DNA from: Microlunatus kandeliicorticis
GTDB lineage: Bacteria; Actinomycetota; Actinomycetes; Propionibacteriales; Propionibacteriaceae
Length of the DNA stretch: 64,000 nt
Reading direction: 5' to 3'
Assembly (NCBI RefSeq): GCF_014137855.1
Contig: NZ_JACGWT010000004.1
Location: 434,001 to 498,000 of the forward strand
The notes below the pieces were generated by a model. That model saw only the letters and a program-made list of their open reading frames with translations. It was not told the origin of the DNA and did no database searches. A program made the translations under genes and the position numbers. Of the stretch, positions 31,178 through 36,907 are shown piece after piece. Within the stretch, counting starts at the first letter, position 1; each line of letters begins with the position of its first letter.

Positions 31178-32233
31178 TCAGCGCCGGGTGACCTCGCGGT
31201 AGGCCAGCTCGAGGGCGAGCGCGACGGCGTCGCCGTCGGGCCAGGCGTCGGCCCGGGCCCGGCCGGCGGTCCGCAATCGGTCGGCCAGCGCCGGGTCCCC
31301 GAGCACCCGGGTCAGCGCGGCGGCGGCGGCCTCGGCGTCGCCGGGCGGCACCAGCAGCCCGGCGTCGCCGACCAGCTCCGGGACGCCGCCGACCGCGGTG
31401 CCGACGAACGGCAGCCCGTGCTGGAGCGCCTCCTGGGCGACCAGCGCCCGGGCCTCCCAGTGCGAGGTGAGCAGGAACGCGTCGGCGGCGTACCGCAGCG
31501 CGACCACGTCGTCCCGGGCCCCGAGCAGCCGGACCGGCAGCCCTTCGGCGGCGATCCGGGCCTCGAGCGCGGGCCGCTCCGGTCCCTCGCCGACCACCCA
31601 GAAGACCACCGCCGCTTCGCCGGGGCGGTCGCGGAACCGGGCGGCGACGTCGAGCAGCATCGGGTAGTTCTTCTGGGCGGCCAGCCGGCCGACGCTCAGC
31701 ACCACCCGCGCCGAGCCGGCACCGAGCTCGGCCCGGGTGTGCTCGCGCTGCTCGTCGGGCGGGTAGGCCAGCCAGGCCAGGGTGGCCGGCGCGGACACCG
31801 GCCCGAGCCGTGCCCGCCGGGCGCCCAGCCCGGCGGCCAGGTCGACCAGGTCGGAGCTGGCGCCGAGCGTCAGGTCGGCGGCCCGGGCGGACAGCCGTTG
31901 CAGCGCCCGCCCGACCTGTCCGGCCCGGCCGGCCGCCAGCACCGCGTTGTGCCAGGTGCCGACCAGCGGCGGACCGAGCGTCCGGGTCAGCGGCGCGGCC
32001 AGGCTGATCGCCTTGTAGCCGTGGGCGTGGACGACGTCGGCGCCTCGGGCCAGCGGCAGCGCCGCGAGCGGCCGGACCGGGACGCCGACTCGGTCGAAGT
32101 GCTGTGCGGCGGCGGTCCGGCGCGGGCAGTAGATCGCCACCCGGTGACCCAGGTCGACCAGCCGCGGGGTGACGTCGGCGACGTGCCGGCCGATGCCGCC
32201 CTCGCTGGCGGTGAGCACCTGGGCGATCCGCAT
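31178..32233 (-). CDS. GT4-family glycosyltransferase
   Basis: The 351-residue enzyme has the two-Rossmann GT-B fold of GT4. The N-terminal acceptor half begins [21 protein letters not shown] and has VHAHGYKAI and [11 protein letters not shown]. The donor half has [32 protein letters not shown], and the sugar-nucleotide EX7E-like region [20 protein letters not shown]. It would add a sugar from a nucleotide donor to an acceptor on the inner membrane face. Its ATG overlaps the MurJ-like gene stop (TGATG), so it is coupled to a flippase gene, and the two lie with MraY-like and SteA/SteB genes. No signal or membrane span is seen. Confidence 0.88.
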
Positions 32234-33912
32234 CAGCGCCGCCTCTCCGCCTGCGACGACGCGGGTGCGCCCGCGCCGGTCGGCTCGTCGGGACCGGCAG
32301 CATCCTCACCACCGCCGGCCCGGAGCCCGCGCAGCCCGAGCACCGCCCGGGCCGAGCGCCGGTCGACCAGCCACAGCAGACCGGCGAACACCACCAGGCA
32401 CCCCACCCCGAGGGCCAGCGACCCGAACACCGCCCCGGCGACCCCGGCGTCGGCGAACGGCGCGGAGGCGAACCACCCGGCCACGCCGACCACGAGCGCG
32501 ACCGGGGCCCCGGAGGCGAGCGGTCGGGCCAGTCCCGCGTCCCCACCGGCCAGCGTCGGCCGGGCCAGCGCCCAGCCGACCACCGCCCCGGTGAGCATGC
32601 CGAGCCCGATGCTGAGGCTGATCCCGGTGACCGCGAACGCCGGCGGGGCGGCGAACCGGACGACGACCGCGGCGACGATCACCGTTCCCCAGGCCACCAC
32701 CGTGGTCAGCCCGGCCTGGCGGGAACGGTGCTGGGCGAACAGCGTCCGGGTGGCCAGCCCCATCAGCGAGAACCCGACCAGCGCGGGCGCGAACGCGGCG
32801 ATCGGCCAGGCCAGCGCGGCCGTCTCCCCCGAGCCGGGACCGACCACCAGCAGCCGGGCCACCGGGACCGCGCAGCCGATCAGCAGGCCGGCGCCCAGGC
32901 AGGCCAGGGTGGCGACCGCGGGTCCGATCCGGCCGAGCACGGCGCCCACCGCGGCCGGTCCGCGCTCGGCCGCCGCGCTGAGCCGCGGGAACACCATCTG
33001 CAGCAGGGGGCTGACCAGCACCGCGAACGGCAGCAGGTAGACGGCGTTGGCCCAGGTCGCGCGGGTCCAGGCGCCCTCCAGGTCGCTGTGCCGGGCCACC
33101 AGCATCGCCACCAGCACGCTGGCCTGCTGGACGACGAGCCCGGCCACCGAAGCGCCCGCCATCCGCCGGATCACCGCGGGGTCGTCGGCGGCGAACCGCA
33201 GCGTCGGGCGCAGCCGCAACCCGGTCCGGCGGGCCAGCACCAGCGCCGGGACGAGGGTGGTGGCAGCCAGCACCGCGACACCGAGCGTGGTCCCCCAGCC
33301 GAGGACGGCCAGCGAGCCCGGCCCCAGCCGGGTCAGGTCGGTCCGGCCGGCGGGATCCGCCCCGGCGGCGTAGACCAGGTAGGTGGCGATCACCACCAGG
33401 CTCGAGGCCAGCGGCGCGGCCGCGGCGGCCCAGAAGCGGTGCTGGGCCTGCAGCAGCCCGGCGCTGACCACGGCGAGCCCGTAGCACCAGACCTGCGGGG
33501 CGAAGACGACGAGCAGGGCGGCGGCGGTGCCGGCACCCCCGACGCAGTCGGGCTGGGAGAAGGTGCGGCCGTAGAGCCCGGCGCCGAGGACGGCGAGCAG
33601 ACCGACCGGGGTGAGCACCAGCAGCGTCCAGCAGAACAGCGCGCTGGCCGTCCGCGCGGCCTGGTCGCGCCGCCCGGCGGCCAGGTGCCGGGACACCACC
33701 GGCACGACCACCCCGGCCAGGATGCCGCCCGCGACGATCTCGAACAGCACGTTGGGCAGGTTGTTCGCGGTGTTGTAGGCGTCGCCCAGGCAGGTGTCGC
33801 CGACGGTCTTGGAGAACACCAGCCAGCGTCCGAACCCGACCACCCGGGCGGCCAGGGTCAGTCCGGCGACCCCGGCGGCGACCGCGGCGAACCGACCGGC
33901 CGCCGTGCTCAT
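32233..33912 (-). CDS. MurJ/MviN-like lipid-linked carbohydrate flippase
   Basis: The 559-residue protein has about 14 hydrophobic spans and the MOP-family MurJ features: [45 protein letters not shown] and [12 protein letters not shown]. MurJ flips lipid II from the inner to the outer face of the cell membrane. This copy lacks the long pseudokinase tail of the mycobacterial MurJ (MviN), so it is likely a second MurJ-like flippase with another lipid-linked cargo. The C-terminal ~50 residues are a cytoplasmic, Gly/Ala/Glu-rich tail. It sits 13 bases after the MraY-like gene and overlaps the GT4 gene. Confidence 0.85.
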
Positions 33913-35717: not shown

Positions 35718-36907
35718 GTGAAGAGTTCCTTGACGAAGTAGACGACGTCGTTCCAGCGGGCGATCAGCAGGTCGGCGACCTGGCGGCCGAAGTCGGTGAA
35801 GGCCATCGCCGCGACCAGCGCGAGCAGCCCGGACAGGACCAGCAGCACCAGGTGCCAGCCGCGGATCTCGCTGCGGTAGATCCGCGACACCCCCTTGGCG
35901 TCGACCAGCTTGGGCCCGACCCGCAGCCGGGTGAGGAAGGTCGACGCCATCCCGGCGCGGCCCTTGTCGAGGAACTCGACCAGGGAGGCGTGGGTGCCCA
36001 CCGCAACCAGCAGCTGCGCGCCCTTGGAGTCGGCCAGCAGCATCGCCGCGTCCTCGCTGGTGCCGAGCGCCGGGAAGATCACCGGTTCGAGCCCCAGCGC
36101 ACGCAGCCGGTCGCTGCCGGGCGCGCGGCCGTCGCGGTAGGCGTGGACGACCAGCTCGGCCCCGCACCGCAGGGTCGCGTCGGAGACCGAGTCCATGTCG
36201 CCGATGATCATGTCCGGCCGGTAGCCGGCCTCGATCAGCGCGTCCGCGCCACCGTCCACGCCCATCAGCAACGGCTTGTACTCGCTGATGTAGGGCCGCA
36301 GCGCCTCGAGGTCGGAGCGGTAGTCGTAGCCGCGGACCACGATCAGCACGTGCCGGCCCTCGATCGGGGTGGCCACCTCCGGGACGCCGACGCCTTCGAG
36401 CAGCAGCTCCTTCTCCTGCCGCAGGTACTCCATCGTGTTGTCGGCGAACGCCTCGATCTGGTCCGACAGCCCGGCGCGGGCACGGGCCAGCTGGTCGTCC
36501 AGCAGCTCGGGCGTGAGCACCGTGCCCTTGGCCAGCACCTCACCGTCGGGGCTGCGCAGCTCGTCCTCGATCAGCACCACCCGGCTGCCCTCGTCGAGCC
36601 GGTCGAAGAGCTCCTCGCCGACGTCGTCGAGCAGCGGGATGCCGGCGTCGAGCAGGATGCCCGGCCCGAGGTTGGGGTAGCGCCCGGAGACCGACGGAAC
36701 GGCGTTGACCACCGCGCTGACACCGCTGCGGACCAGCGCCTCCGCGCTCACCCGGTCGAGGTCGCTGTGGTGGATGACCGCGATGTCGCCGGGTCGGAGC
36801 CGCTTGGTCAGCCGCTTGGTGCGCCGGTCCAGGCGGACGGTGCCACCCACCGCGGCGGGCACGCCGCGGCGCCACCGAGTGGGAAGTCTGAGAGCACCGA
36901 GATTCAT
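35714..36907 (-). CDS. steA: Cytokinesis-linked membrane protein SteA
   Basis: The 397-residue product starts at ATG 36907, supported by GGAG; the six-residue longer frame is unlikely. The soluble N-terminal part has thiamine-pyrophosphokinase-like features: VIHHSDLDR, VLIVVRGYDYRSDL, LMGVDGGADALIEAG and MIIGDMDSVSD. It resembles a degenerate TPK fold rather than an enzyme of known activity. Near the C-terminus are one or two hydrophobic spans (HLVLLVLSGLLALVAAMAF). In C. glutamicum SteA forms a complex with SteB at the septum and regulates wall-hydrolase activity. It heads the coupled steA-steB-MraY-like-MurJ-like-GT4 operon, 73 bases after recN. Confidence 0.92.
   Translation of the reverse strand: MNLGALRLPTRWRRGVPAAVGGTVRLDRRTKRLTKRLRPGDIAVIHHSDLDRVSAEALVRSGVSAVVNAVPSVSGRYPNLGPGILLDAGIPLLDDVGEELFDRLDEGSRVVLIEDELRSPDGEVLAKGTVLTPELLDDQLARARAGLSDQIEAFADNTMEYLRQEKELLLEGVGVPEVATPIEGRHVLIVVRGYDYRSDLEALRPYISEYKPLLMGVDGGADALIEAGYRPDMIIGDMDSVSDATLRCGAELVVHAYRDGRAPGSDRLRALGLEPVIFPALGTSEDAAMLLADSKGAQLLVAVGTHASLVEFLDKGRAGMASTFLTRLRVGPKLVDAKGVSRIYRSEIRGWHLVLLVLSGLLALVAAMAFTDFGRQVADLLIARWNDVVYFVKELFT

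Follow-up and report, generated by a model that had tools for sequence, protein, structure and literature searches.

Five genes lie head to tail on the minus strand at positions 31178..36907 of a 64,000-nucleotide stretch of the Microlunatus kandeliicorticis genome (NCBI RefSeq assembly GCF_014137855.1, contig NZ_JACGWT010000004.1, positions 434,001 to 498,000 of the forward strand; hereafter, the window). In order they are steA, steB, a gene for a MraY-like protein of the PNPT superfamily ("PNPT-like"), a gene for a MurJ-like protein and a gene for a family 4 glycosyltransferase (GT4). The four junctions measure -4, +16, +13 and -1 bases, which bears out the layout of 16- and 13-base gaps or overlaps described in an initial annotation of this DNA, and third-position GC is 0.95-0.99 across all five genes. 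We find that the genes form a unit, as that annotation held, and that the same partnership recurs far outside the source genome. Our analysis suggests, with a probability that we put at roughly 55%, that the operon represents, in Propionibacteriales, an old module coupling the division proteins SteA-SteB to the assembly of a polyprenyl-linked glycan. In the window, the operon is flanked by recN, 73 bases before steA, and by pyrG, 98 bases past the GT4 gene; a scan of the locus for promoters and terminators found none. The features are as follows.

35714..36907, minus strand: steA; SteA with a TPK-like nucleotide-binding fold and a SteA-like C-terminal domain (NF040608, PF12555, PF04263, PDB 9hmy)
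34791..35717, minus strand: steB (MctB/SteB family), with a 4-base overlap with steA (PF11382, PDB 9m9z and 9hle)
33926..34774, minus strand: MraY-like PNPT-superfamily protein of 282 residues, starting 16 bases past steB
34451..34456, minus strand: codons of D107-D108, the Asp pair equivalent to MraY D117/D118 (83/83 Actinomycetota homologues; codons checked)
34223..34258, minus strand: codons of the twelve residues N173-K184, with N173/D176 equivalent to MraY N190/D193 (codons checked)
34100..34117, minus strand: codons of G220-N225 (GDCGAN), with D221 equivalent to the Mg-binding D265 of MraY (codons checked)
32233..33912, minus strand: MurJ-like MOP-superfamily flippase of 559 residues without a kinase-like tail, starting 13 bases past the PNPT-like gene (PF03023)
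31178..32233, minus strand: GT4-type (GT-B) glycosyltransferase, with a one-base overlap with the MurJ-like gene (PF13692, PF00534)

By sequence comparison, SteA and SteB of the window are clear members of their families. SteA scores 512 bits against NF040608 (cut-off 150), is matched by PF12555 and PF04263, and finds PDB 9hmy at 6.6e-89; SteB scores 224.5 bits against PF11382 (cut-off 25.6) and finds PDB 9m9z and 9hle at 1.5e-15 and 1.6e-15. The GT4 is matched by PF13692 (100.9 bits) and PF00534 (97.5 bits).

The PNPT-like protein has the MraY/DPAGT1 fold that defines the PNPT superfamily. The Asp triad D117, D118 and D265 of MraY, described together with the uridine pocket in PMC6606608, corresponds to D107, D108 and D221, and these three residues, N173, D176 and also G220 are invariant in 83/83 Actinomycetota homologues. 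The initial annotation had called the catalytic motifs degenerate, on the strength of an eleven-residue stretch where NxxDG is usual. The twelve residues N173-K184 align with NLTDGLDGLA of MraY, and since the Asp triad is invariant we rejected a degenerate MraY. The pocket, on the other hand, is swapped: G194, L195, D196 and F262 of MraY become L177, R178, P179 and M218. P179 is invariant among the homologues, and the three canonical PNPTs of the genome all keep G, L, D and F. The protein has no Pfam match (PF00953 included) and no NCBIfam match at 0.1 (TIGR00445 included); the PNPT part of one open frame discussed below (L058, family f22) reaches 28.3 against the PF00953 cut-off of 27.

With its uridine pocket lost and 282 residues against 360-376 for the MraY chains in the PDB, the protein might instead lack catalysis and serve as a receptor for polyprenyl (pyro)phosphate, signaling the state of the carrier to SteAB, and SteA does have a nucleotide pocket (PMC12977500). 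We consider this improbable given the invariance of the triad and of N173/D176, and given a glycosyltransferase of family 2 (GT2) or GT4 nearby in most genomes (77/84, see below).

A second alternative is a further peptidoglycan route, with lipid I/II or a variant made by the MraY-like and flipped by the MurJ-like protein at the septum. It would fit the MraY fold and the Arg residues at positions 18 and 24 of the MurJ-like copies. The 4.3-Mb source genome, however, encodes three further PF00953 proteins and one further full-length MurJ, with a third, partial PF03023 match below cut-off, and on these grounds we rejected the possibility that the window holds the sole MraY and MurJ of the genome. 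A canonical MraY (TIGR00445, 305 bits, over cut-off) lies about 3 kb from murG in an apparent dcw cluster; a second MraY-type protein (L039:6931-8058, 265 bits, over cut-off) is on a different contig; and a WecA-type protein is encoded near the genes for F0 subunit A and prmC. The canonical MurJ has 1354 residues and scores 295 bits against TIGR01695, over cut-off. The separate canonical mraY and murJ that the initial annotation proposed looking for are therefore both present outside the locus, and the window pair is not the usual peptidoglycan pair. In addition, the MraY-like protein has other residues in place of the uridine pocket, where MraY is thought to bind its UDP substrate; the glycosyltransferase partner in the window is a GT4; and the window matches listed include no MurG model. 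We give this route little credence.

The MurJ-like protein scores 150 bits against PF03023 (cut-off 27.4) and 141.8 bits against TIGR01695, under the equivalog cut-off of 235.55. The hidden Markov model search against PNPT and MOP families suggested earlier thus placed the MurJ-like protein in a Pfam family but left the MraY-like one without any. In a tree, the 41 MurJ-like copies from such loci are split from seven canonical MurJs (the source genome and six relatives) by one branch at 100/100; the truncated L124 was left out, and its row is empty at the first eight positions of the residue comparison. Arg is found at 18 and 24 in 41/41 locus rows with data, and the seven canonical proteins keep Arg 18 and have Lys at position 24 in two cases. 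Position 53 is Glu or Asp in 41/41 locus copies versus Ile or Leu in 7/7 canonical MurJs. R18, R24 and R270 are essential in E. coli MurJ (PMC9973255). R52 and R270 of the E. coli cavity have no equivalents in the locus copies, and we rejected the proposal that the residues reveal another cargo, as these two are lost in 7/7 canonical MurJs too. The absence of a long tail noted in the initial annotation holds (559 versus 1354 residues). The tail of the canonical protein (L040:6998-11059) contains a kinase-like stretch and ends in an F5/8 type C-like segment, each a weak match under the Pfam cut-off.

The association of the genes was examined at three levels. Of 198 Actinomycetota genomes, 94 have a PF11382 match to SteB, 91 of them above the Pfam cut-off; 86 have the PNPT-like protein and 81 have both, which gives an odds ratio of 123 with kinship ignored. 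The two are on one contig in 78 of the 81, and on different contigs in the other three; in all 78 they share a strand with SteB upstream, at a distance of at most 10 kb in 77. The order recN-steA-steB-...-PNPT-pyrG recurs, and the MurJ-like and GT4 genes come after steB and before the PNPT-like gene in families f7 and f12. A family without a row in this alignment-based search is no proof of absence. The 13 genomes with SteB and no PNPT-like protein comprise four of family f4, two of f25, three with SteB under the Pfam cut-off and four with SteB near a contig end. The five genomes in the opposite state are two of family f3, G043 (a weak match), G058 (a contig-end fragment) and G178 (locus cut at the contig start). 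The two f3 genomes (L044 and L045; 7.9 and 9.7 Mb), among seven of that family, retain recN-PNPT-GT4.

Stretches around the PNPT-like gene were fetched for 84 of the 86 genomes, leaving out G043 (under 60 bits at the locus) and G058 (locus not fetched). These stretches carry GT2 in 56 genomes, GT4 in 29, either in 77 and a MurJ-like gene in 25, and GT2 and MurJ-like occur together in just three (Fisher 6.9e-12, kinship ignored). GT2 and a PNPT-like domain share one open frame in L058:7759-9330 and L066:8697-10226 (f22) and in L095:8364-9623 (f44); a fourth frame, in L053, has a partial GT2 match. We also observed a large protein on the stretch in 31/84 genomes, which belong to several families. 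One member without a Pfam or NCBIfam match (L078:8293-10455) is modeled (pLDDT 87) as an alkaline-phosphatase-superfamily domain with a long helical, presumably membrane part, YejM/PbgA being among its matches. No gene of this type is found between steA and pyrG of the window.

At the second level, 96 genomes of the order were compared, with thresholds of >240 bits for the MurJ-like protein (the next MurJ group reaches at most 110) and 1e-30 for GT4. SteA and SteB are found in an identical set of 52 relatives, and the PNPT-like and MurJ-like proteins in an identical set of 39, all inside the SteAB set. In 39/39, the start of the MurJ-like match falls in an interval from 4 bases before to 138 bases after the point where the PNPT-like match ends, and this strict pairing is the best hint that the MurJ-like protein flips the product of that enzyme. 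GT4 matches were obtained in 38 relatives: 36 of the 39, G256 and G217. The latter two have reduced loci, recN-steA-steB-GT4-pyrG and recN-GT4-pyrG, respectively. In the three genus relatives without GT4 (G203, G208 and G209; L258, L260 and L261), the slot between the MurJ-like gene and pyrG is occupied by a GT87-like protein, which passes the PF09594 cut-off in two of them and falls short of it in the third. Within the genus, SteA, SteB, PNPT-like, MurJ-like and GT4 (1e-30) are jointly missing from 4/20 genomes. The expectation in the initial annotation that the five genes would co-occur in related genomes is thus borne out by joint presence and joint absence.

Finally, GTDB contigs were scanned with a pattern biased toward AGR codons in which part of the RPGR motif was kept constant; this yielded at least 118 loci, of which 80 are named (five Actinomycetota, one Chthonomonadaceae, L205, and 74 Firmicutes-type names) and 38 are without a name. 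Window residues 173-182 are fixed by the pattern, so they are not evidence in these rows. After 58 of the 118 with less than 3.2 kb of upstream DNA were left out, SteA, SteB and GT2 were found within 3.5 kb upstream of the PNPT-like gene in 56 of the 60 pattern loci listed (mostly Bacillota), the misses being L150, L161, L221 and L245. In the Phycicoccus stretch L142, which contains 100 N, SteA was not found and SteB is present in part only. The locus L165, from Thermoanaerobacterium saccharolyticum, carries recN, steA, steB, GT2 and PNPT. GT2 is present at 100/118 pattern loci listed, and pyrG is matched in 7/118 listed stretches (at most 8 kb each). One locus, L240, reads recN-spoIVB-spo0A-steA-steB-GT2-PNPT-DUF3866-NUDIX, and its GT2 has the DPMS 5mlz as best PDB match, with AglJ and PpgS among its models. 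DUF3866 downstream of the PNPT-like gene was seen at L240:6466-7560 and at L200:2195-3349, there past an M20-type peptidase. In L150:350-3925 (labeled Coriobacteriaceae) and L245:2175-5975, a single open frame, on the other strand from the PNPT-like gene, encodes both an L078-type protein and a MurJ-like domain. The five genes of the window are therefore the form of one lineage, in which steA-steB-PNPT is joined by GT4 and a MurJ-like flippase, versus GT2 in most lineages; the five-gene system of the initial annotation is a real unit, but the wider module is SteA-SteB-GT-PNPT, to which MurJ and GT4 belong in some lineages only.

In the reading we favor, the PNPT-like enzyme would transfer a sugar-1-phosphate from a nucleotide sugar to polyprenyl phosphate through the usual Asp triad, reading the donor through its rebuilt base pocket, so that a uridine donor may not be used. 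Extension of the lipid-linked sugar would fall to the GT4 and its outward flipping to the MurJ-like protein, and SteA in the cytoplasm with SteB outside would tie assembly of this putative glycan to peptidoglycan remodeling at the septum. The septal placing draws on Corynebacterium and Mycobacterium, where activation of peptidoglycan hydrolases at the septum by SteAB has been described (PMC12977500, PMC6705760); in mycobacteria, SteB is dispensable for separation (PMC12338722). SteA of C. glutamicum is stabilized by UDP or GDP (PMC12977500).

Several observations weigh against this reading. Because the recN-pyrG neighborhood is conserved in itself, with recN, steAB, pyrG, NUDIX and xerD syntenic across much of the phylum, co-location alone overstates the coupling, and our counts ignore phylogeny. 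The four f4 genomes, probably Mycobacteriales by gene order, have recN-steA-steB-pyrG-NUDIX-xerD with no PNPT-like match; because SteB occurs there without that enzyme, the SteAB role in Mycobacteriales, in which SteB acts on the hydrolase RipA, seems to need no such glycan. PNPT-like and GT4 genes occur without SteAB in 2/7 f3 genomes (no SteB genome-wide, no SteA at the locus), SteAB occurs without PNPT in 13/52 relatives, and neither GT2 nor GT4 is on the fetched stretch in 7/84 genomes. Nucleotide binding by SteA of M. tuberculosis was inconclusive (PMC12977500), and a special cargo for the MurJ-like protein cannot be read from its aligned cavity residues. The strongest counter-evidence is that SteAB seems to function without the pathway in Mycobacteriales and that each half can occur alone. 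The shared synteny, the separate halves and the varying glycosyltransferase type would also suit an ordinary locus for a wall polysaccharide, placed beside steAB by chance in the conserved recN-pyrG neighborhood, a common address with separate jobs. We judge this account unlikely, though of some weight: the genes are tightly packed, with overlaps or gaps of at most 16 bases, all five are absent together from the genus genomes noted above, and the order steA-steB-GT2-PNPT recurs at the pattern loci where pyrG is so seldom matched, beside spo0A in L240, the sole one checked.

A bolder extension of the coupled-module reading, which we regard as possible but doubtful, is that the PNPT subfamily with the rebuilt pocket starts an undescribed lipid-linked glycan from a non-uridine nucleotide sugar, that SteA-SteB began as its division-site arm in an ancestor of Bacillota and Actinomycetota, and that Mycobacteriales kept the regulators only. 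The nucleotide pocket of SteA might then sense the nucleotide that the pathway releases. In mycobacteria and corynebacteria, SteAB has been studied as a switch for cell separation, and that pocket is unexplained; if a glycosyltransferase and a lipid-carrier enzyme accompany SteAB in many other lineages, both the pocket and the ancestral job become testable. If true, the PNPT subfamily with its altered donor site would be a new enzyme to assay and would suggest that many Bacillota and Actinomycetota have a glycan, possibly septal, that is so far undescribed.

Four known systems offer comparison. SteA and SteB of the window are orthologues of SteAB (MctB/TapA) of Mycobacteriales, downstream of recN. 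In the portions seen of PMC12977500, PMC6705760, PMC12338722 and PMC7775120, the latter are treated with RipA or MtrAB and without a PNPT, glycosyltransferase or MurJ-like operon partner. The words glycosyltransferase and MurJ are absent from the text of PMC12977500, which already reports SteAB beyond Actinobacteria, downstream of spo0A, and MurJ is merely listed among proteins detected together with TapA (SteA) in PMC12338722. The literature searched, with preprints and subscription papers mostly outside it, showed no link of SteAB or the spo0A-side genes to PNPT, MurJ, glycosyltransferases or lipid-linked sugars.

Relative to MraY, WecA and DPAGT1, the PNPT-like family replaces the pocket residues G-L-D and F, mostly with L/V/R, R/A, P and M, has its own motifs around G117-K136 and RPGRAxK, and is represented in the window by a protein that matches no curated model. 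The MurJ-like protein resembles the lipid II flippase MurJ in its Pfam match over cut-off and its equivalents of Arg 18 and 24. It differs in falling below the TIGR01695 cut-off, in its separate branch, in Glu/Asp 53, in lacking a kinase-like tail and in that, among the 96 relatives, its gene is found only in genomes with the PNPT-like gene; at the level of the phylum it accompanies only 25/84 loci. The GT2 polyprenyl-phosphate sugar transferases (DPMS, AglJ, PpgS) have their likely counterpart in the GT2 of the wider module (56/84 Actinomycetota and 100/118 listed pattern loci), although the L240 GT2 is under the cut-off of every NCBIfam model shown, and the window has a GT4 and a MurJ-like protein in place of GT2.

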